This document shows positions 17,656 through 42,320 of a stretch of DNA of 50,884 nt, piece by piece. Below the pieces are notes generated by a model that saw only the letters and a program-made list of their open reading frames with translations, was not told the origin of the DNA and did not search any database. Each line of letters opens with the position of its first letter. The first letter of the stretch is position 1. The stretch is from Methanomassiliicoccales archaeon (GTDB lineage: Archaea; Thermoplasmatota; Thermoplasmata; Methanomassiliicoccales; UBA472), in NCBI GenBank assembly GCA_038740345.1, contig JAVYMA010000014.1:1-50884 (forward strand). Reading direction: 5' to 3'. The position numbers and the translations under genes are program-made.

Positions 17656-18540
17656 CTACATTAAAAGAACGTTGTGGATATAACCGTCAATTTTTCTCAT
17701 GCATCTACTAAATACGGAGTCTGGGAAGAGGTCAACAACGGGCTTCCCGTTGGCAAGGCTATCATATACCATCTCGCAAAAAGGTACCTTACTCACCACT
17801 TCGATTTGCAAATCTTTAGCTCTTCTCTCTATCTCATCGGCCTTCTTCGGATTGAGGTCGAATCGATTGATGACCAAGGCAGTCGGGACACTCATCCTCT
17901 TAGCCAAAGCTGCAACTCTTTCCATGTCGTGTGCTCCGCTAGCCGTCGGCTCTGTAACCAGCAGGCAGAGATCTGCTCCAGATAGAGTGGCTATAGCAGT
18001 ACAGGCAATCCCCGGGGGTCCGTCGACTATCAACAGCGGGATACTTTCTTCGATGGCTTTGTCCCTAGCAGCATTCTTTATCTCCATAGCAAATTTCCCT
18101 ACATTCTCTGCAGGTGGTTCCAGATTGCCATGGGATAGCCAGCCATTATCTATTTTGGACAGAAACCTCTCACCGATGTCTTGCCCTCTTAGCTCTATCG
18201 CCGTTTGTGGGCAAAGATGACTGCATAATCCGCAACCTTCACATCTATCGAGGTCGATTTTAGCGTATCTATTCTTCCCTTTTTTTACCATCGCGATGGC
18301 TTGGAATCTACAATGAGAGGCGCATATTCCGCAGCCATCACAAGAATCTGTCCTAATGAATGCTCTCTGCATAATCAACGGCGCCCTTGATAATTCGCGG
18401 GAATTGAAAAGAAGGTCTAGGTTCGGAGCGTCAAGATCGCAATCTGCCGCCACGACAGACGGCTGTATCTTTATCAAGCTGGCAGCTATGACTGTCTTGC
18501 CCGTCCCCCCTTTGCCGCTTAGGATCACGAGTTCCTTCAT
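17656..18540 (-). CDS. MinD-superfamily ATPase with inserted 2[4Fe-4S] ferredoxin domain (ORP-cluster type)
   Basis: The 294-residue protein starts with the P-loop LSGKGGTGKTVI (about 7-18) and has CDLDAPNLDLLF near 34-45. Two [4Fe-4S] motifs are inserted: CDGCGICASHC near 69-79 and CEGCGLCSHLC near 99-109. The second half continues the ATPase fold (VDGPPGIACTAIATLSGADL). Such ATPases are typical of strict anaerobes and occur in pairs beside NifX-like proteins; Fe-S or Mo-Cu cluster assembly and a role in cell division have been proposed for the Desulfovibrio counterparts. It overlaps the upstream paralogue by 4 bases and is the last gene of the cluster. Confidence 0.9.
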   Translation of the reverse strand: MKELVILSGKGGTGKTVIAASLIKIQPSVVAADCDLDAPNLDLLFNSRELSRAPLIMQRAFIRTDSCDGCGICASHCRFQAIAMVKKGKNRYAKIDLDRCEGCGLCSHLCPQTAIELRGQDIGERFLSKIDNGWLSHGNLEPPAENVGKFAMEIKNAARDKAIEESIPLLIVDGPPGIACTAIATLSGADLCLLVTEPTASGAHDMERVAALAKRMSVPTALVINRFDLNPKKADEIERRAKDLQIEVVSKVPFCEMVYDSLANGKPVVDLFPDSVFSRCMRKIDGYIHNVLLM

Positions 18541-19403
18541 TTATCTGCAACCTCCAGGCACTTTTCCCATAGTCTCGAGAATAGCTCCTTCCACCTCGGC
18601 TCCTCAATTAGGAGCTCACCCTTCGAATATTTCTCGGCTATGAAGCGGCTAAAAGGCAGGCTTGCGGCGATTTCCAAATCAAACTTGTCCAGATACTCGA
18701 GATATTCACTCGCGTCCTTATCCCGCAGTCCAACCTTGTTGAGGAGCAAGAGGGCGGGAATGCCCATTTTTCTCACGAGTTTGATGGCCAAACCAAGATC
18801 ATGCATTCCGAAAGGCGTCGGTTCAGTGACCAATAGGCAGACATCAGCGCCGCTCAGGGCTTCGGTCACGCCACAGCCCACACCAGGAGGGCAGTCCAAC
18901 ACCGCATTCACATTTTCAGGGATTCTCTCTTTCACAGCACGGATAAGAGGCACCGTGGATGGCTCCCCGATCCTCATCAAACCATAAACGAGGCTCCTAT
19001 GGATTCCCGCTAAATAGACCAGCTCTCCTATCTTTCTCTCTCGCATCAGGATGGCTTTTCGAGGGCAAAGATCCATGCAAGCCCCGCAGCTATGGCAAGC
19101 TTCCTCTCTGAACTTTACTTGTCCCTTGATGTGCATAACGGCGCCGAAGCGGCAAAAGGATGCACATTTCCCGCAAGAACTGCAATCTTCCTGGGAGACA
19201 TAAGGGACGGGGCGATGAATGCTTTGGACCGTTTCCTGCCCAGAAAAAGGGAATAGATGGCAGTTGGGGGCCTCCACGTCAAGGTCAACCAGCCAACTCC
19301 TAGCAGCTGCAGAGAGATTGGTCGAGACCAGAGTCTTACCTGTGCCACCCTTGCCGCTGGCGACTGCTATTCGCAATCTTTTCCTCATAGCATCAGGATT
19401 CAA
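18537..19403 (-). CDS. MinD-superfamily ATPase with inserted 2[4Fe-4S] ferredoxin domain, second paralogue
   Basis: The 288-residue protein is a diverged paralogue of the gene that follows it. It has the P-loop ASGKGGTGKTLVSTN, LDVEAPNCHLF, and two [4Fe-4S] motifs, CSSCGKCASFC and CHSCGACMDLC. The fold resumes with DCPPGVGCGVTEALSGADV. The ATG at 19403 overlaps the stop of the NifX-like gene by 4 bases, and its own stop overlaps the next ATPase start by 4 bases. The two ATPases probably act as a heterodimer, as inferred for other organisms with this pair. Confidence 0.9.
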   Translation of the reverse strand: MNPDAMRKRLRIAVASGKGGTGKTLVSTNLSAAARSWLVDLDVEAPNCHLFPFSGQETVQSIHRPVPYVSQEDCSSCGKCASFCRFGAVMHIKGQVKFREEACHSCGACMDLCPRKAILMRERKIGELVYLAGIHRSLVYGLMRIGEPSTVPLIRAVKERIPENVNAVLDCPPGVGCGVTEALSGADVCLLVTEPTPFGMHDLGLAIKLVRKMGIPALLLLNKVGLRDKDASEYLEYLDKFDLEIAASLPFSRFIAEKYSKGELLIEEPRWKELFSRLWEKCLEVADK

Positions 19404-19756
19404 TGCCTATGTTCCTTGCAGGCACTGTGGACATCCGCGGGTCGGAGCTTACCCTCCTTCCACTGTCTTATAGCTTGATTGATGGTGCCGCAAGCCCCAA
19501 CATAGGTGCGAATGTTGAAATTCTCCAACATCTGGATTGCCTTAGGGCCGAGACTAGAGCAGATCATTACTTGAACTCCTCGCTTTGCGATATGCTCTGG
19601 GGGCTTGCCGACTCCTCCTGCATGCTCTCCCCTATTCTCAAGAACATCAAGAGAACCATCTTCCGTATCAACTATTAGGTAATATGGAGCGCGACCGAAA
19701 TGCTGGCAAATATCGTCATTGATGCTAGTGCCCATGGAAGGCACGCATACTTTCAT
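19400..19756 (-). CDS. NifX/NifB-like dinitrogenase Fe-Mo cofactor family protein (orange-protein-like)
   Basis: The 118-residue protein has the family fold: KVCVPSMGTSINDDICQHFGRAPYYLIVD at the start, the GG/GVGKPPEHIAKRGVQVMI middle, and LENFNIRTYVGACGTINQAI at the end. Homologues bind metal clusters, for example the Mo-Cu cluster of the orange protein. Shine-Dalgarno GGAGGAGAGG directly precedes ATG 19756. It lies between a second NifX-like gene and two ferredoxin-type ATPases on the same strand. Confidence 0.88.
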   Translation of the reverse strand: MKVCVPSMGTSINDDICQHFGRAPYYLIVDTEDGSLDVLENRGEHAGGVGKPPEHIAKRGVQVMICSSLGPKAIQMLENFNIRTYVGACGTINQAIRQWKEGKLRPADVHSACKEHRH

Positions 19757-19773
19757 CCTCTCCTCCTCCCGCC

Positions 19774-20196
19774 TCAGTTCTCTATTCGATTGGTTCTGTA
19801 ACTGGCTCTTTCACTCGAGAACCCGTGCATCACCACATCCTCGGCGCTATATTCTCGTTCTTCACATCTTATGAGAAGCCCTTTCTCAAAGGCTATTAGA
19901 GCCTCTTTCCCGCTCATGGATTTGGCTATGAAGACCTCTATGCCTGATTCTCTGAGGATTCGCATAGCATTAGGTCCGGGCTTACCCCCCAAGACCGCGG
20001 TGGCGCCGTTCTCTACCACGATCTGCGCCGTGCGCACCCCCGCACCACAGCTTTGCTCGGAGGAAGGGTCTTTGACAACACGCTCGACCTTTCCATTCTC
20101 CACCAATAGAAGGTATCTGCAGCGTCCGAACCTGTCATCCACAGAGTCGTCGAGGCTGGGGCCCTTTGAGCATATGGCAAGCTTCATCTCTCTCAT
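19774..20196 (-). CDS. NifX/NifB-like cluster-binding protein, second copy
   Basis: This protein of about 140 residues has MKLAICSKGPSLDDSVDDRFGR (first part), CGAGVRTAQIVVENGATAVLGG and the C-terminal IEVFIAKSMSGKEAL, matching the Fe-Mo cofactor biosynthesis family. A roughly 30-residue C-terminal tail follows. The ATG at 20196 overlaps the TGA of the small zinc-ribbon gene (ATGA), which decides the start over an upstream in-frame ATG at 20220. Two different NifX-like proteins in one cluster suggest separate carrier and acceptor roles, an inference. Confidence 0.85.
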   Translation of the reverse strand: MREMKLAICSKGPSLDDSVDDRFGRCRYLLLVENGKVERVVKDPSSEQSCGAGVRTAQIVVENGATAVLGGKPGPNAMRILRESGIEVFIAKSMSGKEALIAFEKGLLIRCEEREYSAEDVVMHGFSSERASYRTNRIEN

Positions 20197-20432
20197 CTTC
20201 TCCCGAATGGACCGCGGCATCGGCCCCGACCGAAGCCCGCATCATTTCGATGGAAAGATGTGGATTTGCAAGCAGGGCAGGAGGCGGGACGGCCTGTGCC
20301 GAATGGCACGCTCCATACATGCCCGCAGTTGGCACATATGAACTCGCGCTGACATCCCGCTTGCGACCTTTCCTCTGCGGACCAAGCACGGCCAGGGCGC
20401 CAACCGGGTCCAGCACCAAAACATACGCACAT
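20193..20432 (-). CDS. Small zinc-ribbon protein of the ORP-like cluster
   Basis: The 79-residue protein has a central ribbon, FICANCGHVWSV and CPACKS, and Gly/Arg-rich ends (GFGRGRCRGPFGRR). It is coupled by a 4-base overlap to the NifX-like gene that follows. The start at 20432 is preferred because upstream in-frame residues are not protein-like. Small Gly/Arg-rich cysteine proteins often accompany NifX-like genes in anaerobes. Its function is unknown. Confidence 0.7.
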   Translation of the reverse strand: MCVCFGAGPGWRPGRAWSAEERSQAGCQREFICANCGHVWSVPFGTGRPASCPACKSTSFHRNDAGFGRGRCRGPFGRR

Positions 20433-24909: not shown

Positions 24910-25713
24910 TCATGCCCTAGCTTGGATACCGAAGAACAGGGTCCATGCCAGTATCGACTTGGATACCAGGCTAAGGATGATATATCCTCTTTCGCCAACT
25001 AAATAATCCTTCCATCTCCCCTTCTTGCGGTACTGCAGGATCATGTTCAGGGGGAAGGTTATCCAGAAGAAGACCAGGAAGGCCGTGGCCACGTAAACGA
25101 AATTCGGTATGTTGTCGAAGTTCTCCAGAGCCGCTCCGAAGAAATACATGAGCACGGCTATCCAAGCGATGGCGCCGGCGATGGATCCGAAATAGAAGTT
25201 GATCCAGCTTGTTTTAGTGGTGTATTGGTTCTGCAACTCCATGGAGTAGCCGAATAGATTCATGGATGCATTGCACCCTATAAGAAGCAGGAGGGCCGCG
25301 GCATCATTGAGTCCGCTGAGTATGGCTATAATGACTATCATCAAAGAGGAGGAAATGGCGTACTCATACCATCTGGCTGGGTTCATTCCCTTGCTCAGGT
25401 TCTGGACATACCATTTATAACCGAAAGTAGAGACAGAGTAGTGGGCAATAGCTGACATGAACATGAAGAGGGCGATCATCGGCCCCAAGGGCACCTCGAA
25501 CATCGTCTGCTGATTAGGTATCGGTCCGATGCCCTCCTGGAACTTAAAGAAATTAGTCGTAATGGGAACCCAGACCTCCTTGGTGAAAAGAAGCATAATC
25601 AGGCCTTGTATGAGATGCAGGGTGCCCATCACCAAGTTCCATTTTTTCAACTTAAGGTATTTAGGATCCTTTGGATCCGCTATTTGTTTACTTTCTCCTG
25701 CCGTTTCTGTCAT
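24910..25713 (-). CDS. Heliorhodopsin
   Basis: The 267-residue seven-helix retinal protein matches heliorhodopsins and not type 1 rhodopsins. The retinal-binding Lys252 lies in SLVSKSILAW (helix 7), the counterion Glu117 in RWYEYAISSSLM (helix 3), and the family's inner histidines appear as His33 (LHLIQG) and His91 (AIAHYSV). GCNASMNLFG (helix 4) and GERGYIILSL are also characteristic. The long polar segment 45-72 is the extracellular loop between helices A and B. Heliorhodopsins have an inverted topology with a cytoplasmic N-terminus, and a sensory or enzyme-modulating role is proposed. A TATA box lies at 25746-25752. Confidence 0.93.
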   Translation of the reverse strand: MTETAGESKQIADPKDPKYLKLKKWNLVMGTLHLIQGLIMLLFTKEVWVPITTNFFKFQEGIGPIPNQQTMFEVPLGPMIALFMFMSAIAHYSVSTFGYKWYVQNLSKGMNPARWYEYAISSSLMIVIIAILSGLNDAAALLLLIGCNASMNLFGYSMELQNQYTTKTSWINFYFGSIAGAIAWIAVLMYFFGAALENFDNIPNFVYVATAFLVFFWITFPLNMILQYRKKGRWKDYLVGERGYIILSLVSKSILAWTLFFGIQARA

Positions 25714-25745
25714 ATGAATCCCTGACGAAGATTTGAAACTCAGTG

Positions 25746-25752
25746 TATATAT
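25746..25752 (-). promoter_or_regulatory. TATA box of the heliorhodopsin gene
   Basis: The minus-strand element GATATATA lies 33-39 bases before the heliorhodopsin ATG at 25713, predicting a transcript with a leader of about 10 bases. The gene is therefore transcribed on its own. Confidence 0.6.
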
Positions 25753-25804
25753 CGGTTTGGATAAATGCTATCTGAACTAAGGAGTTGATTAGAGGTCGCT
25801 GCAG

Positions 25805-26191
25805 ATGAAATGCGCTCGATGCGGGAAGTGCTGCTACGAAACCAGGATGGAACTTTCAGAGGAGGATGTACATAGATTGGAGGCATTAGGCTATTCCAGG
25901 AAGGACTTCTGCGAGAGCGATAAAGATGGCATTCTCAGATTGAGGAATGTAAAAGGAAGATGCTATTTCCTTTTAGGTAACAACGAATGTGCAGTGTATC
26001 CCTCACGACCTCTTGGATGCGAAATATACCCGGTGAATTGCGATCTGGACGGAGAAGTCTTTGTTGACGACTTCTGCTCCGTCGCTTCCTCAGTCGGAAA
26101 AGATGAGATATTAAGGAAAGGGGAGCTGCTGAGAAGGCATTTGCGCGTTATTGATCATGAGGCTGCGCTGAGGAAAGGTAAGCCGGTCTGA
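25805..26191 (+). CDS. YkgJ family cysteine-cluster protein
   Basis: The 128-residue protein starts MKCARCGKCCYET, the CxxCxxCC cluster of the YkgJ (zinc/iron-chelating) family, and has the partner motif CAVYPSRPLGCEIYPVNC near 62-79. The cysteines should bind a metal or Fe-S cluster. Its function is unknown. It is convergent with the nitroreductase gene, with only 2 bases between their stop codons. Confidence 0.85.
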   Translation: MKCARCGKCCYETRMELSEEDVHRLEALGYSRKDFCESDKDGILRLRNVKGRCYFLLGNNECAVYPSRPLGCEIYPVNCDLDGEVFVDDFCSVASSVGKDEILRKGELLRRHLRVIDHEAALRKGKPV

Positions 26192-26193: not shown

Positions 26194-26703
26194 CTACCAT
26201 CCATTCATATGCACCCGTTCGGGACGAAAGCGGTCTACCTGTGGCAATGGCTTCGCTGGATATCCCAAAGGTATCAAGCATAGAGGCACGATTTCATCGG
26301 GAAGCTTGAACAGCTTACGCACCCCCTTGATCCTTTCCTCGATAGGATAGACCCCTGTCCATACTGCCCCAAGTCCCATTTCATGGGCGGCCAAGAGCAG
26401 ATTCTGGGCCGCCGCGGAGCAATCCTGGGGCCAAAAGCCAGGATATCTCTCCTTGCTGGTGTCGCCACACACTAAAATGGCAGCCTGCGCCTCCAGGCAC
26501 ATCTTGGCATTCGGATTAACATCTACGATCGCATCCAGCATCTTTCGTTCGGTCACGATCAGAAAATGCCAAGGTTGTTGGTTGCCAGCGGAGGGTGCCT
26601 GCATGGCCGCCCTCACCAGCTTATCTATTATCTCTGGTGGGATTGGCCTATTAGAGAAGCTGCGACAGCTCCTTCTTGTGCTAATGGCTTCTAAAGTGTT
26701 CAT
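26194..26703 (-). CDS. Nitroreductase family protein (FMN-dependent)
   Basis: The 169-residue protein has the FMN-binding start STRRSCRSFSNRPIP, the substrate-side APSAGNQQPWHFLIV (about 36-50), and the second FMN site AAQNLLLAAHEMGLGAVWTG. The C-terminal LIPLGYPAK motif is also typical. The length is that of the short archaeal group. It probably reduces quinone-like, nitro or flavin substrates with NAD(P)H; the physiological substrate is unknown. Confidence 0.9.
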   Translation of the reverse strand: MNTLEAISTRRSCRSFSNRPIPPEIIDKLVRAAMQAPSAGNQQPWHFLIVTERKMLDAIVDVNPNAKMCLEAQAAILVCGDTSKERYPGFWPQDCSAAAQNLLLAAHEMGLGAVWTGVYPIEERIKGVRKLFKLPDEIVPLCLIPLGYPAKPLPQVDRFRPERVHMNGW

Positions 26704-26772: not shown

Positions 26773-28182
26773 TCAGAAAGGCTTCATGCCTCTCCTTATC
26801 TGAGTGCGGACATTACGATTCAGGATGTTGCTGAAGACTATACGTCTGGCGGTATGATTACGGAGCAAGGTTGAAAAAAACTCCTTCACTCCTCTTCCAC
26901 TCCACCACCCTTTCAGCCATTCAGAGTAAGCTGAATTAACAAGGTCCTGCAACTCCTGCTTAGAGCGCGCGCACTCATATTCATAGATGCGATGATTGCT
27001 CTTCCAGTCATCTGGGCGAATGAATCCGTGTTGGCTCATCTCATCCCATATCTTCGTCCCTGGCAGACAATCAAGTATGTTTACTTGTATGGCATGTGGC
27101 CGTACTTCCCTTATGAAGTTGAGAGTGGTGATGAGGTCCTCATCTTTCTCTACTGGCGCGCCAAAGATGAAGGACGTTATTACCAGCATTCCAGATTCCT
27201 TAGCATTGGCGATAGCCTGGGCGGTCTTCTCCGGGGTTATATGCTTATTGAAATAATCCAACGTGGATTGGGACGCACTCTCAGCCCCGAAATAAATCAC
27301 ATCGAAGCCAGCCTTTTTCATGGTGAGTAGAAGTTCTTTCGAGGCCGAGTCCACCCTTCCTTCGCAGTACATGCGGAGGCGGATCCTTCTTTTCTTGATC
27401 AGTTCGCATATGCGCATCACTCGCCTTTTGTCATGGGTGAAGTTATCATCGACAAAAACGCAGCTTTCAAAGCCATCAGAATAAATTTCCTCCAATTCTT
27501 GTACCACATTCTCGGCACTGCGCGGCCTCCATCTGTTCAAAGAGAAGGCAGCACAGGAGCAGTAAGAGCAACGAAAAGGACAGCCCCTGGATGAGGAAAT
27601 GGTGGTGAATTTCCCGAAGGTCAATGGTATCCCTTGGTGCGTATACCCATATCTTATACCAACAAGTGCGCTCCGGTCGGGAAAGGGAAGAGAGTCAAGG
27701 TCCTCCACAAGACATATCGGCCTCTTCACCAACTCCCCTTTTTTCATATAGCAAATTCCTTGCACTGTCTTAGGCTCGTCCCCTTTGTCCAAGCTGTCCA
27801 ATAGGGATACCAGCGAGTGCTCAGCCTCGCCACGGAGGATATAGTCTATGAAAGGATAGCTTCTCAGGATACTCTCAGTAGCAAAGGTGGCATGATAGCC
27901 CCCCATGAGAATGATGCTCTGGGGAAGCGCTTCTCTCACTTTCTCCAAAACTGCGATGGCTTTGAGGAAGGTGTGTGTTGAGCAGCTCAATCCTATAACG
28001 TCTGGCTTCTCCTGAATTATTCTGCTTAAGAGTTCGCTTCTATCCCAGTCAGCACAGAAAGCGTCACATACCACCACCTCATCATCACGCTCTTTGCGTA
28101 AATTAGAGGCCAAATAGAGAAGACCGAGCGGAGGCCATTTCTCGGTCGTCCTCCCCGGAGGGGTGGACAACAGCACTTTCAC
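26773..28182 (-). CDS. B12-binding radical SAM protein
   Basis: The 469-residue protein has an N-terminal cobalamin-binding domain (about 1-130; MGGYHATFATESIL near 92-105), a radical SAM barrel with the cluster motif CPFRCSYC (about 201-208), and a C-terminal helical tail. Enzymes of this class methylate or cyclise unreactive carbons. The GDGT ring synthases GrsA and GrsB belong to the same broad family, so a lipid role is possible given the other lipid genes here, but nothing specific proves it. GTG 28182 overlaps the stop of the upstream hydrolase gene by 4 bases, so the two are co-translated. Confidence 0.88.
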   Translation of the reverse strand: MKVLLSTPPGRTTEKWPPLGLLYLASNLRKERDDEVVVCDAFCADWDRSELLSRIIQEKPDVIGLSCSTHTFLKAIAVLEKVREALPQSIILMGGYHATFATESILRSYPFIDYILRGEAEHSLVSLLDSLDKGDEPKTVQGICYMKKGELVKRPICLVEDLDSLPFPDRSALVGIRYGYTHQGIPLTFGKFTTISSSRGCPFRCSYCSCAAFSLNRWRPRSAENVVQELEEIYSDGFESCVFVDDNFTHDKRRVMRICELIKKRRIRLRMYCEGRVDSASKELLLTMKKAGFDVIYFGAESASQSTLDYFNKHITPEKTAQAIANAKESGMLVITSFIFGAPVEKDEDLITTLNFIREVRPHAIQVNILDCLPGTKIWDEMSQHGFIRPDDWKSNHRIYEYECARSKQELQDLVNSAYSEWLKGWWSGRGVKEFFSTLLRNHTARRIVFSNILNRNVRTQIRRGMKPF

Positions 28183-29216
28183 TCTCTATCCTCCATAAGG
28201 TGAAGATGCTGCACAATCCCATCAATCTTCTCCCTCGACAGCTCATCGACCTTTATCTTCACCTTTCTCACCGCCTCCATTACTGCCTGAGGTTGGGTAA
28301 ACATGGGCATGTGACCTGTGCGCTTCAGGAGGATGAGCTCAGATCCTTTCACCTCTTGGTGAAGACGAAGGCTTTGCCCTTCTGGAGGCACAATTCGATC
28401 ATCCTCTCCCACTACCAATACCAAAGGCACTTTGATATCGCTGTATCTTGTCTCAATCGCACTCAGGGTGGCAATGAGACACTTTAAATCTTCGGCCTCA
28501 GCCTTGAGAGAGCTGGGTCGAAGGGCCAGGGCGAGACCTACTTGCCGATATTGATGCGGCGCGGCATCAGGGGCGAAGGTGAACCTTAACAGTCTCTGCC
28601 CCAATAATCTTCCTACTGGCAATATGAGAGTCCAGATCAAAAAAGTACCGAGTAGCCTTCTATTCAAAGCGTTGAATATGCTTATGACTGGCACTTGATC
28701 GCCTTCAAAGCAATGGACCACCCCCGATAAGAGCACCACCCCTGAGATATCCTGCGGACATCTGATGGCTAAATCCAAAACAACCGCAGCAGCTGAGGAA
28801 TGACCCACCAAGATGGGCCTGTTCACTCCTAGCTGCTTCCATGCCTCTTTGATCAATTCCCCCTGCCAAGAGCAAGTGTCTCTCCCCCAAAAGATTCTTG
28901 GCGTGTGGCCATGGCCGGGCCTGTCTATGGCTATAACTCTGAATTCTTTAGCGAGAGCGTCCATTATGGACAGCTTGTAATCATAGAGGGAGCCGTTGCT
29001 GCCATGAAGCATGATCACGGGTGCTCCCTCACCTCTCTCGCAGTAGTGAACCTTTCCCCATTTGGTCTGCACGAAAGCACATGGTGGGGGCATAGCGCGC
29101 TTATTCAATGCCAGCACGAGACAAGAGAGAAGGAAAAGAATCCCAAAGATAATTGGCAAACTGAATAACACCCAAAGAAGGTTCACAGAGAGGGCAAGGT
29201 AATGAAGGCATTTCAA
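28179..29216 (-). CDS. Alpha/beta hydrolase with N-terminal membrane anchor
   Basis: The protein of about 345 residues has a hydrophobic N-terminal segment (about 5-38; FSLPIIFGILFLLSCLVLAL). An alpha/beta hydrolase domain follows: HGSNGSLYDYKLS, the nucleophile elbow GHSSAAA, the acid region VVGEDDRIVPPEG, and the histidine KRTGHMPMFTQP. A serine hydrolase anchored in the membrane is expected. The start is a TTG at 29216, and internal starts cannot be excluded. The 4-base overlap with the B12-radical SAM gene suggests the two act on related, perhaps lipid, substrates. Confidence 0.87.
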   Translation of the reverse strand: MKCLHYLALSVNLLWVLFSLPIIFGILFLLSCLVLALNKRAMPPPCAFVQTKWGKVHYCERGEGAPVIMLHGSNGSLYDYKLSIMDALAKEFRVIAIDRPGHGHTPRIFWGRDTCSWQGELIKEAWKQLGVNRPILVGHSSAAAVVLDLAIRCPQDISGVVLLSGVVHCFEGDQVPVISIFNALNRRLLGTFLIWTLILPVGRLLGQRLLRFTFAPDAAPHQYRQVGLALALRPSSLKAEAEDLKCLIATLSAIETRYSDIKVPLVLVVGEDDRIVPPEGQSLRLHQEVKGSELILLKRTGHMPMFTQPQAVMEAVRKVKIKVDELSREKIDGIVQHLHLMEDRE

Positions 29217-29305: not shown

Positions 29306-30673
29306 TTGCAGCTTCATAGGATAGAGTCGGAGGGACTGGCTCACTTTTCGTATTTGTTGATTGATGGGACAGATGCCTTGGTAGTGGATCCACGCAGGGA
29401 TGTGGATGTGTATCTTGAGTTAGCTGCGAAGGAAGAAGCGCGAATTACCCGCGTCCTAGAGACGCACCGTAACGAGGATTATGTGATTGGCTCCATGGAG
29501 CTCATGGAGAGCACTGGAGCTGAAGTGCTTCATGGACCGGGATTGGATTGGGATTATGGTGGCATAGCCCAGGACGGCGAGAAACTGCGCCTCGGCTCCC
29601 TAGAGATAATGGCTATTCACACTCCTGGCCACACGGAAGAAAGCATGTGCTATGCACTCTTTGACCGTTCCTCGGGAGAAGATGCCGTGGCAGTATTCAC
29701 CGGCGATACTCTGTTCGTGGGCAACGTAGGGCGCACCGATCTGCCCGGTCCAGAAAAGAGGGAGCGGCTATCCCGCCATCTGTTCACGAGCATTCATGAG
29801 AAGATCATTCCCTTAGGCGATGGATGCATGGTCCTGCCAGGGCATGGAGCTGGATCTGTTTGCGGAGGGGACATAAGCGAAAGACCCTTTAGCACCATAG
29901 GTTTGGAGAAAAAGAATAATCCGATGCTTAACCTTTCAGAGGAAGATTTCGTGCGGCTGAAAATGGAAGAACAATTGGATCGGCCCCCGTATTTCAGAAG
30001 GATGGAAACACTAAACTTGCGCAAACACGCCCCTTTACAAAGGCTACCTTCGCCACCTCCTTTGTCACCAAAGGAATTCAAGGAGGCCCAGGAAAATGAT
30101 ACGATGGTTTTGGACACCAGGATGCCGCATAGCGTGGCGGGTGCCTATATCAAAGGAGCGACAAGCATATGGCTCGACGGCCTGCCCCTTTATGGAGGTT
30201 GGTTGCTCCCCTATGACCGCCCCATATTGCTCGTTTTAGATAGTAAAGAGGAGCTAGAGAGAGCGGTTCGGATCCTTGTCCGAATAGGATATGATAATAT
30301 CATAGGGTACCTCCATGGAGGGATGGCGCAATGGTGCCGAGAAGGGTTAACATATGAGACCCTACCAACCATAAACGTGAAGCAAGCCAATGAATGGTGG
30401 AAGCAGGGCAATTCATTGTTCATAGATCCCCGGCCCAGGCACGAGCGAGAAGTCTCTCATATACCTGGCACTAAGCACATATTCGTGGGGGAGCTTGAAT
30501 CTAGACTGGCTGAGATTCCGCAAATGATGAAGAAGGTATGCATATGCAGCGCCGGCTTCAGAGGCGCAATGGCAGCGGTCATGCTGCGCAATCACGGCTT
30601 TGATGAGGTTTATAACGTGCTGGGCGGATTGGGAGCGTGGAAGGCGGCGGGCTACCCTATCAAGGAAAAATAG
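29306..30673 (+). CDS. MBL-fold hydrolase fused to two rhodanese domains (persulfide dioxygenase-like)
   Basis: The 455-residue protein has an N-terminal metallo-beta-lactamase domain (about 1-240) and two rhodanese domains (about 265-350 and 365-455). Metal-site residues are H54 and D58 in ETHRNEDY, HTPGHTEES, FTGDTLFVGNVGRTDL and LPGHGAGS. The usual second His of HxHxD is Asn56. Only the second rhodanese domain has a cysteine at its active loop (CICSAGFRG); the first reads LVLDSKEE and looks inactive. The TTG at 29306 has AAGGGGTG five bases upstream. It should handle persulfide or sulfane sulfur. Confidence 0.88.
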   Translation: MQLHRIESEGLAHFSYLLIDGTDALVVDPRRDVDVYLELAAKEEARITRVLETHRNEDYVIGSMELMESTGAEVLHGPGLDWDYGGIAQDGEKLRLGSLEIMAIHTPGHTEESMCYALFDRSSGEDAVAVFTGDTLFVGNVGRTDLPGPEKRERLSRHLFTSIHEKIIPLGDGCMVLPGHGAGSVCGGDISERPFSTIGLEKKNNPMLNLSEEDFVRLKMEEQLDRPPYFRRMETLNLRKHAPLQRLPSPPPLSPKEFKEAQENDTMVLDTRMPHSVAGAYIKGATSIWLDGLPLYGGWLLPYDRPILLVLDSKEELERAVRILVRIGYDNIIGYLHGGMAQWCREGLTYETLPTINVKQANEWWKQGNSLFIDPRPRHEREVSHIPGTKHIFVGELESRLAEIPQMMKKVCICSAGFRGAMAAVMLRNHGFDEVYNVLGGLGAWKAAGYPIKEK

Positions 30674-33856: not shown

Positions 33857-34127
33857 ACGATTAATTCTAACTACGCCCTTGTTGAACTCACTATCATGTT
33901 TTCTTTTTCTTAATTATGAAAAGGCGATTGTTAATCTGGGGGGGTAAAATAATAAAGTGTTCTACAAATATTTGCATAAAAATGCAACAATAATTTAAAA
34001 TTCGCATAATTATCGCAATATATTTTCAAATTAACACACCTATAGATTTCCAGATGAAACGTTGTTGCATTGCCTTTACGGCAAGGATTATATATCGTCA
34101 AATGCACTCAACAGATGGGGATTCCAT
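33857..34127 (+). promoter_or_regulatory. AT-rich intergenic region and promoter of the MtaA/MtbA-like gene
   Basis: The region has no supported gene. TTATATAT (34088-34095) is a good TATA box placing transcription start near 34117, 11 bases before ATG 34128. This decides the start against an upstream in-frame ATG at 34062 that lies before the promoter. Confidence 0.6.
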
Positions 34128-35246
34128 ATGGGCTACGAAGAGATGTTTCCACCTATGGATATGAAGTGGCATGCGAATGCCGCTAAGCGCTTTGCGAGCC
34201 CCTTCGTGGATAATCCGCATGACAGGATCGACGTGGACCCAATCATTTTGTCCCACGCCGCGGTGGCATGCGGGTATACCATCAGGGACTTCTATGAGAA
34301 GCCGGAGCTGGGAATACACTGCGTGGGTTATATATCGCAACTATACGACCTATTACCAGTGACGCACTGGTTCTACTCCATGCCTTGGACTCGTGAGCTG
34401 GGATTGAAATTGCAATATAAAGAGACCCTCCCGCCAATCTCAACGGGGCCAATCCTGAGCGAGCCTGGGGATGTGGACAAGCTGCGCGTCATGGACAAGG
34501 AGGAGCTGAAGAAGAACTACACCCTCCAGGAGTTCTACCGCATATATGACTATGTGGCCAAGAACTTGCCCATGACTCTGGTTCCGATCTCCTACGGTTT
34601 CGACTTGGTAGGAGCCGCGGCAGAACTGGTGGGCGTGGAGAACTTCATCATGTGGACCTTCACAGAGCCAGAAGCAGCGAAGAAATTGGTCAAGATTTAC
34701 ACCGATACTGCGGTTAATGGCGCAGCGGGAATGGCCGACAAATATGGCATGGCGATGCTGATCGTGGGCTCGGTGCTGGCCAACAATGACATATTCTCCG
34801 ATGAGGCCGTGGAGGAGTACTCCGCCAAGATGATGAGGTACTACGTCGACCAGAGCTTCAGGAAAGGTGCAGGCCCGCAGGTCTTCTACCACCTATGCGG
34901 CAACCACGAGACCGACTATAAGGTCTTCAAGGACACCTTGATTTGGTCCCCCTTCACCGTGTTCCACATCGGTTACAAGGGGAAGAACGTGTTCCCCTCA
35001 AAATTGCTGAAGGAGGAGTTCAGCTCCCGGGCCACCATCATGGGTTCTGTGGACACCAAGCTTATGATTAACCCCAACCCCATGACGGTATACCAACAGG
35101 CTAAGGAGCAGTTGCTAGCTGGCCGTGACGCGCCCAAGGGCTACATCCTGGGCAACTCCTGCGAATGCCCGCCATACACATTGCCTGGCAACATGCTGGC
35201 ATTGGTGAAGGCTGCTAGGGACTTTGGTACCTATGGGTCATGGTGA
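34128..35246 (+). CDS. Uroporphyrinogen-decarboxylase-fold methyltransferase (MtaA/MtbA-like)
   Basis: The protein of about 372 residues has the URO-D-type TIM barrel of methylcobamide:CoM methyltransferases. Zinc ligands expected as HxC...C are visible in FYHLCGNH (His and Cys) and in ILGNSCECPPYTLPGN. The family passes a methyl group from a corrinoid protein to CoM or another thiol or pterin. No corrinoid protein or substrate methyltransferase gene is in the window, so its donor is unknown. It is 10 bases upstream of the zinc-ribbon gene, forming a two-gene operon that ends at a strong terminator. Confidence 0.83.
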   Translation: MGYEEMFPPMDMKWHANAAKRFASPFVDNPHDRIDVDPIILSHAAVACGYTIRDFYEKPELGIHCVGYISQLYDLLPVTHWFYSMPWTRELGLKLQYKETLPPISTGPILSEPGDVDKLRVMDKEELKKNYTLQEFYRIYDYVAKNLPMTLVPISYGFDLVGAAAELVGVENFIMWTFTEPEAAKKLVKIYTDTAVNGAAGMADKYGMAMLIVGSVLANNDIFSDEAVEEYSAKMMRYYVDQSFRKGAGPQVFYHLCGNHETDYKVFKDTLIWSPFTVFHIGYKGKNVFPSKLLKEEFSSRATIMGSVDTKLMINPNPMTVYQQAKEQLLAGRDAPKGYILGNSCECPPYTLPGNMLALVKAARDFGTYGSW

Positions 35247-35256
35247 GGTGAGATAA

Positions 35257-35721
35257 ATGGACATAAAAGCATCTGACCAGGTCAAGGAGACCATCGGCAA
35301 GAGGGGCCTAAAGATCGATGACGTGATGGACGTCATCAAGACCGCCGAGGGCTCGAACAAGAAGGTAGTCGACAAGGCGACAGGCAGGGTCATAGCCAAG
35401 AAGACCATCAACAACGTGACCGTTTATGCTGATTACAATGTGGAGAAGGGCATATTGAAGTCCCACGCCAATGTGAACTCAGCATACTCTCACCGCATGA
35501 CCATCGGCAAGATCGTCAACGCCACTGAGCCCTCGCCCTGGACCTGCGCCCACTGCAATGCGCAAGCCTATGCCGGTACGGCGGAGATGAGTTATATGGG
35601 AGTGGTCAGGAACGGACCAGCCATCGTCTGCCCCAAGTGCAACGATGCTTGGGTGGAGGAGTACCTGGCTACCAAGACGCTCGCAGCCGCCGAGGGCCTC
35701 TTCGAGAAGAAGAAGGCATAA
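35257..35721 (+). CDS. Zinc-ribbon partner protein of the methyltransferase
   Basis: The 154-residue protein starts with a helical region (about 1-50; KETIGKRGLKIDDVMDVIK), continues with a beta-rich segment (VTVYADYNVEKG), and ends with a zinc ribbon, CAHCNAQAY and CPKCNDAW. I do not recognise a characterised family. Strict linkage to the methyltransferase (10-base gap, shared terminator) suggests it is a subunit, an assembly factor or a regulator of that enzyme. The start has a GGTGAG Shine-Dalgarno. Confidence 0.75.
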   Translation: MDIKASDQVKETIGKRGLKIDDVMDVIKTAEGSNKKVVDKATGRVIAKKTINNVTVYADYNVEKGILKSHANVNSAYSHRMTIGKIVNATEPSPWTCAHCNAQAYAGTAEMSYMGVVRNGPAIVCPKCNDAWVEEYLATKTLAAAEGLFEKKKA

Positions 35722-35726
35722 ACGCT

Positions 35727-35760
35727 AAAAGGGGCCGAAATGGCCCCATTTTAACTTTTA
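35727..35760 (+). terminator. Hairpin terminator of the methyltransferase operon
   Basis: GGGGCC-GAAAT-GGCCCC (35731-35747), flanked by AAAA before and ATTTTAACTTTT after, forms a stem of 6 GC pairs plus A/T extension with a T-rich tail. Confidence 0.75.
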
Positions 35761-35888
35761 TCTCTTGCATGGACCTTATTTTTCATCAATTCTAATCGGT
35801 TTAAACTTCTCCATGTAGAGTCAAATTTACGAATTCGGAAGGTTTAATGAAGTGCTAAGATGTTGTGGTGTGAGAGCCAGGTGAGAAG

Positions 35889-37253
35889 ATGACTCAGAAA
35901 ATCGGCGAGACGAACAGCCTCTGTCCAGAGTGCTTGAGGACTATACCTGCTGAGAAGATTGCCGAGGATGATAAGATCTATTTAGTCAAGAAATGTCCCG
36001 ATCATGGAGAATTCAAGGTCTTGATATGGACCGGTGTGAAGGACTACCTCGACCTATATCAATATAAACCAGAATTCTCTCGCCCCGCTAAAGTGGCCGT
36101 TCAGGAGCGAGGCGATTGTCCACAGATATGCGGACTGTGCCCAGATCATCGCCAACATACCTGCCTGGTCGTGCTTGAAGTGACCAACCTCTGCAACCTG
36201 AAGTGCCCCATTTGCTTCGCCAGCGCGAATGAGCATTACCGCTTCCATCCATCTTTGGAAGAGATTAGGAACATGTATCAGACTATTGTGGATTATGTAC
36301 CTCATCCCATATGCATCCAGATATCAGGAGGAGAACCGACTATCCGCGATGATCTCCCGGAGGTTGTTCGCATGGGCAAACGCATGGGCATCGATTACAT
36401 AGAACTCAACACCAATGGGGTTCGCTTGGGTGAGGATATTGAGTTTCTGAAGGCACTTAAACAAGCAGGGGTTGAATCTTTGTATTTCTCCTTCGACGGC
36501 CTTCGCCCCGATATTTACATGAAGACTTGTGGCCGGGATCTGCTGCAGCCGAAGCTCAAGGCGCTGGAAAACTGCAAGCAGGTAGGGATGGGAGTGACAT
36601 TGGTGGTTGTGGTGTCGCCCAACATCAATCAGGACCATATAGGGGAGATTGTCCAGTTCGCCAAGAAGTGGGTGCCGACTGTCAAAGGGATTCATTTCCA
36701 GCCTCTCAGCTACTTCGGTCGCTACCCCATAGATCCAGAGAATAAAGACCGCATCACCATACCCGACCTGCTGCGAGAGATCGAGGTACAGACTAAGGGA
36801 GAGTTGAGAGCGGATAATTTCATCCCTACCTCATGCTCCAACGTCCATTGCGATGCCAAGTCCATGAGTGTGCTGATGGAGGACGGCTCCTTGTTCCCCA
36901 TGACTCATAGAGCTATGGGGCCTCCCAGCGATACGAAACATGTGGCAGAGAAGACTAGGAAGGAGATTTCCGATCTTTGGCGCTTCATCGAGGAGAAGCT
37001 TGATGACACACCTGCCGAGGACAACACCTGGAGCAGCTTCATAGAAAGGGCCAAGACCAATTACCTCACGGTCAGCACCATGGCTTTCCAAGATGCATGG
37101 ACCGCGGAGACGGAAAGATTCTGCAACTGCTGCATACACACCGTTACTCCCGATGGCAGGCTCATCCCCTTCTGTCTGTTCAATATAAATTCGAAGAAAG
37201 GAAAGACCCTCTACCGACATGAGATATGGTCTAAATATGGTAAGAAGAGTTGA
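35889..37253 (+). CDS. Tetraether-lipid-synthase-like radical SAM protein (MJ0619 / Tes family)
   Basis: The 454-residue protein has an N-terminal ribbon (C12, C15, C36), an auxiliary cluster region with CGLCPDHRQHTC (C81, C84, C92), the radical SAM motif CNLKCPIC (C102, C106, C109), and a C-terminal cluster region CNCCIHTVTPDG. Tes joins two archaeol tails into tetraether lipids, and this arrangement and the RxxxCPxCGLCPDHxQHTC-type pattern fit it. Its length is a little short of the known members (about 500), and related subfamilies with other roles exist. The ATG has an AGGTGAG Shine-Dalgarno. Confidence 0.7.
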   Translation: MTQKIGETNSLCPECLRTIPAEKIAEDDKIYLVKKCPDHGEFKVLIWTGVKDYLDLYQYKPEFSRPAKVAVQERGDCPQICGLCPDHRQHTCLVVLEVTNLCNLKCPICFASANEHYRFHPSLEEIRNMYQTIVDYVPHPICIQISGGEPTIRDDLPEVVRMGKRMGIDYIELNTNGVRLGEDIEFLKALKQAGVESLYFSFDGLRPDIYMKTCGRDLLQPKLKALENCKQVGMGVTLVVVVSPNINQDHIGEIVQFAKKWVPTVKGIHFQPLSYFGRYPIDPENKDRITIPDLLREIEVQTKGELRADNFIPTSCSNVHCDAKSMSVLMEDGSLFPMTHRAMGPPSDTKHVAEKTRKEISDLWRFIEEKLDDTPAEDNTWSSFIERAKTNYLTVSTMAFQDAWTAETERFCNCCIHTVTPDGRLIPFCLFNINSKKGKTLYRHEIWSKYGKKS

Positions 37254-37255
37254 AC

Positions 37256-37312
37256 TATCGCCTAAAGGGGGCGATAAAATCTATCAAGAGCGCTGATCGA
37301 TTCAATCAGCGC
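37256..37312. terminator. Two hairpins between convergent genes
   Basis: TATCGCC-TAAAGGG-GGCGATA (37256-37276) lies directly after the radical SAM stop codon and is a plausible terminator on the plus strand. GCGCTGAT-CGATTCA-ATCAGCGC (37290-37312) reaches into the last codons of the convergent zinc-ribbon gene and may serve the minus strand. Confidence 0.65.
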
Positions 37313-37611
37313 CTCGGATTTTTGCCTACCGACTTGTAGTAATTCTCTACGATTTTATTCATGTAGAGGGAGACATTCCTTTGTCCTAATTCCGTGGGCA
37401 CTATAGGTCCATACAGAGGGAACTCCAAATCGCATCTCAGGCAGCGCGCCATCTCGCAATTAAGAGCTGCCTTGCTGCATCCTACGCATGCGATAGCCCT
37501 CGACTGGAACAGGCTGAATTCCTGACCGCAGCGAGGGCATTTGATCCTTTGCGTGGTCTTCATCAGCCTTGGCGTTACTCCAGCCTGTCTCATGTGCTCA
37601 GTCAATGGCAT
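37306..37611 (-). CDS. Small double zinc-ribbon protein
   Basis: The 101-residue protein has two CxxC pairs per ribbon: CPRCGQEF with ACVGCSKA, and CEMARCLRCDLEF. The C-terminal helix (about 75-101) is positively charged. I do not recognise a family. It lies convergent to the Tes-like gene, with a hairpin between them, and is followed on the same strand by no other gene. Its function is unknown. Confidence 0.6.
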   Translation of the reverse strand: MPLTEHMRQAGVTPRLMKTTQRIKCPRCGQEFSLFQSRAIACVGCSKAALNCEMARCLRCDLEFPLYGPIVPTELGQRNVSLYMNKIVENYYKSVGKNPRR

Positions 37612-37681
37612 CTTCTATCCCATATGTTTAAAGTAATGCGCCTACTTAAAATCTCCCTGATTACATCACAGGCATTTACGC

Positions 37682-38452
37682 TCATTCTAACTCAGGTCCC
37701 CTTGGCTCCATATCGGGTGCGAAAACCACCTGCCAACCTAGGAAGGGTTTGAAGGGGTGGCTGGAGAATTGCTCAGTGCATCTCAGGCCTTCCACTATCT
37801 GTTGTGAGCGGCATTGATGAAAGGCTAAAAGCATCTCATGCTCCTGCACAAGTCCGAACATTCGGTCGCCTATGCACGGCAAATCTATCACCATACTGCG
37901 TTCGCGGTAGGCATGAGCAATAGAGGAGCAGAGCGAGGACTGGCCAGTTATCGTGCTCCTTATTTCCTCCCCTTCCTGATAGGCATACGCTATCACCATC
38001 CTTAGAGCTTGAGCAGGTGTCACATACATGACTACGACGTCTGGCTCGAAAGGTGTTAGGTCAAGGGGAGACATGGCCAAGGCCTGAAACATTTTTTCCT
38101 TATCCCCTAGCACACCCATGGATTCTTGAATACGCCTGCCTGCTTCAGCATCTTTGGCATAGCGCCATGCCAGCTCACCTTCACTTAACCTTTCTGGAGA
38201 TCTCATCAGGCCAGTGCAGCTTGCCCCCCATACGCATTTGATGCCTTCAGACGAGGCCCCCACTATGCCATCATGACGATAATATCGTGCCAGAGCCGCC
38301 ATATGACAGGGGGCCGTGGCGTGCAGCTGCCTCAGGCCCTGTATCTTGGCCAACTCCTTCACATCGGGAATGAGCCTGATCGCGATGGGATAAGCGGCAA
38401 GATTGCAATATCTACGCAGATCAGCGCACACCTTTTTCCAATCCTGGGTCAT
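37682..38452 (-). CDS. DUF169 family protein
   Basis: The 256-residue protein has the DUF169 pattern: an N-terminal PIAIRLIP, CHMAALARYYRHDG with a conserved Cys, EGIKCVWGASCTGLM and a C-terminal CIGDRMFGLVQEHEMLLAF. The family is widespread in methanogens and other anaerobes and contains conserved cysteines that may bind metal or a cofactor. Its function is unknown. It appears to be a single gene. Confidence 0.8.
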   Translation of the reverse strand: MTQDWKKVCADLRRYCNLAAYPIAIRLIPDVKELAKIQGLRQLHATAPCHMAALARYYRHDGIVGASSEGIKCVWGASCTGLMRSPERLSEGELAWRYAKDAEAGRRIQESMGVLGDKEKMFQALAMSPLDLTPFEPDVVVMYVTPAQALRMVIAYAYQEGEEIRSTITGQSSLCSSIAHAYRERSMVIDLPCIGDRMFGLVQEHEMLLAFHQCRSQQIVEGLRCTEQFSSHPFKPFLGWQVVFAPDMEPRGPELE

Positions 38453-38849
38453 ATGGCAGTCATCCGCATGAGGCTATTTACCACTTGCAGCAGCCTCTTT
38501 TCATATTTTAATGCTTTCCGATTCCAGAAAACATAAGCTCGAGTTTTTAGTGAGCCACGGAAACGATGTATTAAGGAATAATTAAGGCGAAAAATCGTGA
38601 ATGCAGCGAGATAGGAATTGTATCTAAATTTAAGACACCTTTATCATTATCATGGTGAACTTTTTCAAACGCCCTTAAGATTGAAGAATTCATTTAAATT
38701 ATTCATCCAATGCGTTCAGGGATCGGTATCGGTTTCTTCCCATCTCCTTTGGGCCCGTATAGAGTGGGAAATCTCAGGATTAATTTAGCTGAATGACTTC
38801 AGAGATGTCGGAAAAAACCATTTAGCCACGTTATGCCATTCCCTGCTTA
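38453..38849. other. Intergenic region upstream of the ligase operon
   Basis: Nearly 400 bases without a supported gene. No clear TATA box or Shine-Dalgarno was found next to ATG 38850, so the promoter is not located. Confidence 0.35.
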
Positions 38850-40301
38850 TTGAATCCGATGAGGCGTCTGCTGCTCGCCATCGCTCGTTCCAAGCTCTCC
38901 TCGACGAAATTGGATGAGGATTCCCAGCATCCTCTGGAGGATTGGATATGCAATAAGGTGGCGGTCGAGGCCAAAAAGGAGCCAGAACTGAGACGGGCCA
39001 TAGGAAGAGTGAGAGCAGAAGAAGTGGACTTGGAAGCTCTTCGAGAATACCAGTTGTTCAGAGTAAGGCAGCAGTTACGCTACACCCAACAGAATAGCTA
39101 TTATTACAAAAAGAAATTGAAGGAGGCAGGCATCAATCCTTCAGTCATCAAGGAATTCTCCGACCTGACTAAAATACCCATTACAGAGCCTAAGGACCTA
39201 GCTGAAGATTCCATGGGTTTCCTTTGCGTCTCTCAGACTAAAGTGATGCGAGCCTTTACCACATCCGGCACCTCTGGCAATCGCAAAAGGCTATTCTACA
39301 CCCGCGCAGACGTGCTCAACATCGTTGACGCCATCGCCGCCGCTTTGAAGGATGTGGGAATGAAGAAGAATGATACCCTGCAGATAATGTTCCCCACGGT
39401 AGCAGCTTGGGATCCTGGTCTAATGCTGGAGAGCGCCTGCAAGGTAGCAGGTCTGAATGCTGTGAATGCCTCTACCATCGACATTCAAGAGCAATTGCGC
39501 ATCATGAAGGAACATAGAACGACCATGATGATCGGCCTCACCTCTTTCCTCTATCGATTGACTATCTTGGCTAAAGATAAGGAGGATCTCTCTTCCTTCG
39601 GAATAAAGGCCATAATCTGCTCGGCCGAGCCACTACCTGAGGCCATGCGCCGAGAGCTTGAGAGTGCTTGGGGGTGCAAGGCTCTAAGTCAATATGGAAT
39701 GACGGAGATGGGCCTGGCCACGACGATAGAGTGTCAGGCACAAGACGGGATGCACGTGGACATGGCGGACTATCTGCCAGAGGTGGTAAATCCGAAGACG
39801 GGCGAGCATGTTGGGAATAGAGAAGAAGGAGAGCTCATCTGGACCAGCCTCAACTTCGAGGGGAGCCCTTTGATCCGCTATAGATCCTATGACCTGTCCA
39901 TGCGCATCGACCCACCCTGCGGTTGTGGAATGAGCGTTTTGGGCAAAATCGGAAAGATCAAGGGACGTATGGACATGCAATCGAAAATAGGCCTGGGGGA
40001 TAAGGTCTATCCCCTTCTTTTCGACGAAGCCTTGCTTAAAATACCAGGAGTATTGGGGTATAATGCCACTATCGAGAACAGCGGATATCGCGACCTCCTA
40101 CGATTCCGCGTGGAATATTCTGGCGATCCCAAAGAGGGCAAGAAACTGATGGAGGAATCGTTACTTTCATTGGACGAGATCAGGGTGGGAATAGAGAACG
40201 ACCTATTGGAACCCCCGATAGTAGAAATCACCCCTCCGGATCAAGAACATTGGGTGCCTAAGACCAGAAGTTTGATAGATAAGAGGAAGCAATTCGATTA
40301 A
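38850..40301 (+). CDS. PaaK-like acyl-CoA/AMP ligase (phenylacetate-CoA ligase family)
   Basis: The 483-residue protein belongs to the adenylate-forming enzymes: the P-loop TTSGTSGNRKRLFYTRAD near 137-154, LSQYGMTEMGL near 287-297, and the later DLSMRI and IKGRMD motifs of PaaK-type enzymes. It activates a carboxylic acid as an acyl-AMP or acyl-CoA; aromatic and aliphatic acids are both possible. The first 110 residues contain the alpha-helical PaaK start. It is the first gene of a run with a PlsY-like acyltransferase 10 bases downstream, so its product may feed that enzyme. Confidence 0.85.
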   Translation: MNPMRRLLLAIARSKLSSTKLDEDSQHPLEDWICNKVAVEAKKEPELRRAIGRVRAEEVDLEALREYQLFRVRQQLRYTQQNSYYYKKKLKEAGINPSVIKEFSDLTKIPITEPKDLAEDSMGFLCVSQTKVMRAFTTSGTSGNRKRLFYTRADVLNIVDAIAAALKDVGMKKNDTLQIMFPTVAAWDPGLMLESACKVAGLNAVNASTIDIQEQLRIMKEHRTTMMIGLTSFLYRLTILAKDKEDLSSFGIKAIICSAEPLPEAMRRELESAWGCKALSQYGMTEMGLATTIECQAQDGMHVDMADYLPEVVNPKTGEHVGNREEGELIWTSLNFEGSPLIRYRSYDLSMRIDPPCGCGMSVLGKIGKIKGRMDMQSKIGLGDKVYPLLFDEALLKIPGVLGYNATIENSGYRDLLRFRVEYSGDPKEGKKLMEESLLSLDEIRVGIENDLLEPPIVEITPPDQEHWVPKTRSLIDKRKQFD

Positions 40302-41037: not shown

Positions 41038-41099
41038 CATCCAGATGTAACGAAATATCTTTGAAATGATTATGTAGATTGCACAATTTTTTCTCATTC

Positions 41100-42320
41100 A
41101 TGGTTCTCTTGGAACCCCTGTTGGCCATAGTTTCATCCGCCGTGCTGGGTGCAGCTATAGTTGCATTGCTTTCCTGCAAGCCGAGGTATATCGCCCCATG
41201 GATTGGTATAACTGTGTTCTCTATTGTAGGCATCGTTTGGGGGACTTCTTACTTCCAGCAGTGGGATATTGCTATCGCCTTGATATGCGCCTCCTCAGGA
41301 GTGGGTGGCTATTATGCGATGACTAATCGCCTGTTAAACCTGCAAGGGCCGAGACAACTCCCTGAGATTAATGAGAGCCAGAAAAGCAATCCTGGTCACA
41401 TTTCTGTGGTGTACGTGACGCATGGCGAATCGGAGGAATATGACCAGGTGGCTTGGGCGCGACAATTCAAGGAATTCGACCATCAGGAACTTCGTTTCAT
41501 TCCTTACCTAGCAAGACCCTTCTTTTTCGCCATACTACGTAATAAATATATGAAGGTAGGAAAGAGTCATCACCGCAGCATTCATGAGGTGATGATGCGG
41601 AAGGTGAAGGAGGAGCTAGAGAAGAGAAAGGGTAACGATATCAGATTCTACCTATCCTTCCTGGATGATGAACCTAGGCCAGATGTGGCCGCGGCCAAAG
41701 CTTTTAATGAAGGGGCTAGAACAATAATCGTATGTAGAGTCTTTCTAACAACCTCGAATCACACCGCGGAAGCCGACGATCAAGTCAAAAGCCTGCGGTT
41801 GGAGGAAAGAGGAGTACGACTGAGATTCACCGAGCCTCTTTGGAACTCGGAAAAGCTGAGGAGGAGCTTCTTGGAGAAGGCGAATGCCATCATACCGCCG
41901 GAAGAACGGGCTAATACGGGTATTTTATTGGTCGGCCACGGACAGCCACATGAATGGGATCTGGCATTCCCGACTGAAACTGAACAGGAGATGAAATTTA
42001 GAGAGGATCTCCTCAAGGACTTCGAGAAGGAAGGTTACAGAAGAGAAAATCTCAGCTTGGCATGGATGGCATTCCGAGAGCCGAAGGTCCCTGATGTGGT
42101 GAAGGCCATGGCTTCCCGGGGATTGAAGAGGATTATCTACTTCTCTGCTGCCATCAGCGCTGAGGCAATTCATAGCCAGAGCGACATACCTGAGCTGGTA
42201 GCGAAGGCAAAGGTGTCAAAGACGACAGAGACCGTGAACATGGGGGCTTGGAACGATCATCCTCTCGTGATAGAGGCGATACGAGAGAAGATTGAAGAAG
42301 CCCTAGAAGTTAAAGAATGA
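41100..42320 (+). CDS. Membrane-anchored chelatase-fold protein (CbiX/HemH-like)
   Basis: The 406-residue protein has three hydrophobic segments in the first 80 residues and two chelatase-like lobes after that: VVYVTHGESEEYDQVAW (about 107-123) and ILLVGHGQPHEWD (about 282-294), each with a histidine at the usual metal-binding place. Soluble CbiX and HemH lack such a membrane anchor. ATG 41100 is preferred to an in-frame TTG at 41079. It follows the PlsY-like gene by 62 bases on the same strand. The natural metal and tetrapyrrole are unknown, and a non-chelatase function is possible. Confidence 0.6.
   Translation: MVLLEPLLAIVSSAVLGAAIVALLSCKPRYIAPWIGITVFSIVGIVWGTSYFQQWDIAIALICASSGVGGYYAMTNRLLNLQGPRQLPEINESQKSNPGHISVVYVTHGESEEYDQVAWARQFKEFDHQELRFIPYLARPFFFAILRNKYMKVGKSHHRSIHEVMMRKVKEELEKRKGNDIRFYLSFLDDEPRPDVAAAKAFNEGARTIIVCRVFLTTSNHTAEADDQVKSLRLEERGVRLRFTEPLWNSEKLRRSFLEKANAIIPPEERANTGILLVGHGQPHEWDLAFPTETEQEMKFREDLLKDFEKEGYRRENLSLAWMAFREPKVPDVVKAMASRGLKRIIYFSAAISAEAIHSQSDIPELVAKAKVSKTTETVNMGAWNDHPLVIEAIREKIEEALEVKE

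Follow-up and report, generated by a model that had tools for sequence, protein, structure and literature searches.

Heliorhodopsins (HeRs) are type-3 rhodopsins, which are light-responsive and need retinal (vitamin A aldehyde), and a beta hairpin in the A-B loop and a helix in the B-C loop are two hallmark elements of the family. Methanogens are often treated as dark-living strict anaerobes. The described HeRs closest to the one studied here are TaHeR from Thermoplasmatales archaeon SG8-52-1 (PDB 6is6, 7u55), which comes from the same phylum and whose host is likewise said to lack retinal synthesis, with outside retinal proposed instead (PMC9385722), and HeR 48C12 (PDB 6su3, 6uh3), which has an actinobacterial host. 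The absorption of TaHeR lies around 540-555 nm. A third HeR, TfHeR from Trichococcus flocculiformis, binds and stimulates class II photolyase (PMC9769723). HeRs of other anoxic-sediment microbes, none of them methanogens, have been published from Bathyarchaeota, which also lack a complete retinal pathway and for which outside retinal was discussed (PMC7110647), and, in a GTDB survey, from strictly anaerobic Firmicutes and from Thermoplasmatota (PMC8612252).

HeRs of anaerobes are thus already known; what is added here is a host that is an mcr-bearing methanogen, without a known chromophore route and with a carotenoid cluster. We recognised no report of a HeR in methanogens or of a rhodopsin in Methanomassiliicoccales in our open-access searches, and the GTDB survey probably includes such genomes (PMC8612252).

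A full-length heliorhodopsin with an intact retinal site

The window, by which we mean the whole stretch of 50,884 nucleotides that was analysed, contains an open reading frame for a protein of 267 amino acids on the minus strand at positions 24910-25713, with the ATG at 25713 and the stop at 24910. Its product matches the whole of the Pfam model PF18761 (Heliorhodopsin) with 299.7 bits against a cut-off of 26.7, and the NCBIfam model NF038020 (heliorhodopsin HeR) with 301.9 bits against a cut-off of 100. The solved structures matched by the sequence were heliorhodopsins only, with TaHeR (6is6) ranking first. In the AlphaFold model, for which 37 window and locus sequences served as input, the mean pLDDT is 90.4 and there are seven long helices, a hairpin of strands 48-59 and 63-75 in the A-B loop (residues 48-75) and a helix at residues 99-107 in the B-C loop. 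Foldseek aligned this model to 6is6 with TM scores of 0.86 and, by target, 0.92, an rmsd of 1.3 Å and 44% identity over the structure alignment; the second solved match was 48C12, with about 39% identity, and type-1 rhodopsins were far behind. The identification as a heliorhodopsin made in the first-pass annotation is borne out by two curated profiles, the fold and the cavity, all of which agree on a genuine full-length member of the family. If the inverted topology of the family is assumed, the N-terminus would be cytoplasmic. Fusions of the Znf-HeR or MORN-HeR kind were excluded, there being no CxxC pair of an N-terminal zinc ribbon within residues 1-90 and no MORN repeat matched in the Pfam search.

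The four residues singled out in the first reading, Lys252, Glu117, His33 and His91, are all in place: they align with K241, E107, H23 and H80 of 48C12 and are invariant in 51 of 51 aligned HeRs drawn from several families of the phylum. We take K252 to be the Schiff base lysine and E117 the counter-ion. In the same alignment, the SxxxK motif of helix 7 (S248-x3-K252) is invariant at both S248 and K252, as are R114, E241, Q36 and W257, which correspond to the cavity and signalling residues Arg-105, Glu-227, Gln-26 and Trp-243 of TaHeR (PMC9385722). Divergence from the copies in sister species amounted to dN values of 0.06-0.13. Ratios of dN/dS, given only where dS could be estimated, were 0.017 between the host and sister species G001, a pair for which dS is close to saturation, and 0.078 between sister species G001 and G002. 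The invariance of the site residues together with this strong purifying selection indicates active maintenance of the retinal site.

The host genome (1.79 Mb in 47 contigs, of which the window is contig C14) is 99% complete with 2.4% contamination and has mcrA, mcrG and mcrB intact in one operon, and the nearest relatives of the HeR by sequence are from two MAGs named Methanomassiliicoccales archaeon. An anaerobic host is thereby firmly supported, and what was first described as an apparently anaerobic archaeon is more exactly a Methanomassiliicoccales methanogen by gene content, unlike the host of TaHeR. We see next to no chance that the HeR is foreign to its contig through contamination or misassembly, as might be suspected from the fragmentation and contamination estimate of a draft assembly. 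Two sister species (G001, G002) hold HeRs of 83-91% identity with the same genes around them, which refutes the misassembly that the first-pass annotation had named as a way for its reading to fail. Also, the contig carries an archaeal GGGP synthase gene and HeRs occur across Methanomassiliicoccales, including two in a single-contig genome of 1.8 Mb.

Genomic neighbourhood

A probable BRE/TATA promoter element (ccaaaccgATATATAc; positions 25745-25760, minus strand), read by eye, precedes the start of the HeR gene by about 36 nt, which would imply a near-leaderless transcript of the single HeR gene; no operon partner was found in the window. Divergent from the HeR gene is a gene for a CxxCxxCC (PF03692) protein of 128 amino acids (25805-26191, plus strand), followed by genes for a nitroreductase-family protein (26194-26703, minus strand), a B12-binding radical SAM protein (26773-28182, minus strand), an alpha/beta hydrolase whose N-terminal part includes a hydrophobic segment (28179-29216, minus strand) and a metallo-beta-lactamase (MBL)/rhodanese protein (29306-30673, plus strand). 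The Fe-S and radical SAM genes reported near the HeR at first sight are indeed present in the window. The best NCBIfam model for the radical SAM protein was BchE, and a likeness of the genes at 26773-29216 to BchE and BchO was rejected since all scores were far below the cut-offs.

The order from the HeR through the CxxCxxCC, nitroreductase, radical SAM and hydrolase genes to the MBL-rhodanese gene is kept in G002, where the CxxCxxCC gene again adjoins the HeR gene, and G001 agrees as far as its short contig reaches; this synteny speaks against misassembly. In a genome of another family (G023), a HeR gene is located directly upstream of a relative of the MBL-rhodanese gene on the same strand, beside a TrsS-like block. 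The window has such a block at 34062-40301, with genes in a row for a MtaA/URO-D-like protein, DUF7479, a TrsS radical SAM protein (533.9 bits, cut-off 490), DUF169 and a DVU_1553-like CoA ligase, and it is this block that adjoins the HeR in G023 (L087). At five other loci (L080, L092, L094, L097, L110) a small SemiSWEET-like transporter gene is adjacent to the HeR gene or one to two genes away, and in family f2 an SDR oxidoreductase gene is found beside this transporter near the HeR. The SDR proteins near the HeRs of several relatives were considered as retinol dehydrogenases and dismissed, as only generic SDR models (PRK06197 type) match.

Occurrence in the order and the phylum

Among 61 sampled Methanomassiliicoccales genomes, PF18761 matched in 33 at E <= 0.001 and in 32 above the cut-off, spread over five families (in family f2, 4 of 16 genomes). 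HeR is accordingly a real and widespread trait in about half of the sampled order, not a one-off. The HeR in an anaerobic archaeon described in the first-pass annotation stands, but it is not a unique case, given this distribution and the published HeRs of anaerobes. A phylum-wide draw yielded HeRs in 28 of 194 genomes.

A tree of the HeRs, from which viral sequences were left out, divides those of the order into three clades (A, B and C), with the window HeR in B. TaHeR clusters with the group of family f23, in which nine sequences have a zinc-ribbon N-terminus as in published Znf-HeRs (PMC8612252), whereas the window HeR belongs to another clade, made up of Methanomassiliicoccales sequences that have no zinc ribbon. 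Several genomes contain two HeR copies, which in G008 are located on one contig of 1,818,080 bases. In G003 and G015 (L075, L084) two HeRs of different clades form a tandem pair on the same strand, with about 100-200 bases between them. The order thus contains both carriers and non-carriers of HeR, including species with two copies, and makes a clean host set for asking how rhodopsins function where retinal genes are missing.

Search for retinal-synthesis genes, and a carotenoid cluster

According to the first-pass annotation, no gene for carotenoid cleavage or retinal synthesis is in the window, which left the chromophore source open, and a genome-wide search for blh/brp and carotenoid genes was suggested. 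The search returned no blh/brp and one carotenoid cluster. All absences reported here rest on profile searches of draft genomes: a carotenoid-cleavage gene was missing from the window and from the whole host genome, and neither Blh/Brp above cut-off nor an RPE65 dioxygenase was detected in any of the 61 Methanomassiliicoccales genomes. A match to the Blh model (BCD) of 23.5 bits in the host (C2:20817-21029) is below the cut-off, and the region codes for FlaJ/TadC-type membrane proteins of archaella or pili. Lycopene cyclases of the CrtYcd/CrtYeYf type were absent from all 61 genomes, the controls from C. glutamicum and Sulfolobus being matched, and the host had no CrtY/L cyclase above cut-off, with a best score of 19.1 bits to a FAD fold. 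Matches to PF05834 (lycopene cyclase) in 57 of the 61 genomes were discarded as generic FAD-binding folds, which are also matched in E. coli, Thermotoga and M. jannaschii. The Blh profile does work in the phylum, as seen from a strong match of 84.4 bits in genome G176; this genome is not among the HeR-positive ones of the same draw, and none of the 194 genomes combined a HeR with Blh above cut-off. The host is consequently not a retinal producer by the known route (Blh/Brp or an RPE65-type dioxygenase plus a lycopene cyclase), and among the known enzyme families its genome offers no chromophore source. Absence of known genes is no proof of missing retinal synthesis, as there is a precedent in A. 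minutum, where retinal arises by a route that is not known although both blh and diox1 are lacking (PMC7734400).

The carotenoid cluster is located on contig C8 (7418-10621; L043) and comprises three genes on one strand, for a CrtI-family desaturase (667.9 bits to CrtID, cut-off 640), a phytoene/squalene synthase-family protein (172 bits to SQS_PSY) and a UbiA prenyltransferase (346.9 bits to PRK12875, cut-off 205). The three genes are found in identical order in five further Methanomassiliicoccales genomes. By its family the prenyltransferase may be a LyeJ-type elongase, and the cluster would then apparently encode an acyclic, C50-type (lycopene elongase) pathway. As neither tested type of lycopene cyclase is present, no beta-ionone ring is expected. 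CruF is required for full bacterioruberin, and a desaturase of the CrtI/CrtID type needs an electron acceptor. All genomes with a phytoene synthase are HeR-positive (7 of 32 HeR-positive against 0 of 29 HeR-negative genomes, p 0.011, uncorrected for kinship), and the synthase was not detected by profile search in the other 25 HeR-bearing genomes. The cluster thus occurs in a group whose carotenoids are given as unknown in a 2022 review (PMC9410494).

Association with class II photolyase

The host encodes a class II photolyase (575.6 bits, cut-off 550) on a contig other than that of the HeR. It belongs to a block on contig C9 (29346-35646; L119) of genes for a PF09826 beta-propeller protein, a membrane-attached ArsR-type HTH protein, a membrane protein, the photolyase and an RMMBL hydrolase. 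There is no HeR in this block in the host, and eight more genomes from the family have parts of it close to a HeR. In family f1, HeRs are located 4-8 kb from the photolyase gene, in a conserved block with the beta-propeller and membrane-attached HTH genes; these photolyase-near HeRs are mostly of clade A, and the one in G016 is related to the second copy of the tandem. The arrangement in f1 recalls TfHeR, unlike that of the window genome, which has no shared operon. Given the binding of photolyase by TfHeR, we consider the arrangement in f1 suggestive, no more.

Across the sample, a photolyase was present in 19 of 32 HeR-positive and 4 of 29 HeR-negative genomes (Fisher p 4.5e-4, uncorrected for kinship). 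Within f1 the association vanishes (13 of 17 against 4 of 5), for which reason co-occurrence was rejected as proof of a partnership and may reflect lineage or habitat. The photolyase and the carotenoid cluster of the host, as read from their sequences, are hints of exposure to light.

Proposed role of the heliorhodopsin

On balance we think it somewhat probable that the protein is a slow light sensor that binds retinal from outside the methanogen and tunes a protective response when the cells are exposed to light. All-trans retinal would be bound through Lys252 with Glu117 as counter-ion; the intact site and the purifying selection speak for retinal binding, and the missing retinal genes for outside supply. 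The retinal would be taken up from the surroundings, by analogy with TaHeR probably by way of the opening towards the membrane that has been described in that protein. Light would isomerise the bound retinal in cells lit close to the top of wet sediments or mats, and the slow-cycling HeR, a sensor rather than a pump, would signal to a partner, most likely tuning a protective response through repair, redox or transport partners. If the HeR is a working photoreceptor, light sensing would be a common trait of one methanogen order, and retinal must have some source in anoxic mud.

That source could also be the cell itself, should the methanogen produce retinal, or an aldehyde resembling it, by a novel and perhaps O2-independent cleavage of its carotenoids. 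The cluster of phytoene synthase, CrtID desaturase and LyeJ-type elongase genes and the restriction of phytoene synthase to HeR-positive genomes are in favour of this, as is A. minutum, which likewise has a C50 cluster; A. minutum, however, has C50 cyclases (PMC7734400), while the search for CrtYcd/CrtYeYf-type cyclases was negative throughout the order and the host has neither tested lycopene cyclase type. With most HeR-bearing genomes lacking a detected phytoene synthase, we regard self-made retinal as rather unlikely. The carotenoid-cleavage enzymes known so far use O2, and that an anaerobic methanogen forms a rhodopsin chromophore without oxygen, by O2-independent cleavage or with an acyclic or C50-derived aldehyde replacing retinal, strikes us as decidedly improbable.

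A role without light had been raised in the first-pass annotation, and a retinal-free HeR, serving perhaps as a membrane scaffold or as an ion- or zinc-dependent regulator, would fit with the lack of a known retinal source and with hosts that may live in the dark. It offers no reason to keep a Schiff-base lysine and its counter-ion, yet K252 and E117 are as invariant as H33, H91, R114 and E241 and dN/dS is far below 1; we hold this alternative to be improbable. Still less can be said for a light-driven or light-gated proton transporter like V2HeR3, a very unlikely reading: one viral member of the same family is reported to transport protons (PMC9448325), but those cellular HeRs to which the papers considered here assign a function are partner-bound regulators (PMC9529153, PMC9769723, PMC11109279), and the window HeR groups with archaeal HeRs in the tree built without viral sequences.

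Other features of the window

At the contig end (12-2720) there is a CRISPR-like array with about 38 copies of CTATCCACGCCTAAACTGGCGTGGCCCAATTGAAGC and spacers of 35-39 nt, and no cas gene was recognised beside it among the open reading frames read. The protein encoded at 41079-42320 has a C-terminal CbiX/CfbA-like chelatase domain in a longer chain with N-terminal hydrophobic segments, and matches the nickelochelatase model below the cut-off. Two adjoining genes at 17656-19403 encode MinD/Mrp-type ATPases, both of which have a ferredoxin-like cysteine motif inserted in them; next come genes for two small proteins that look like NifX/NafY (19400-20220) and for a DUF134 protein.
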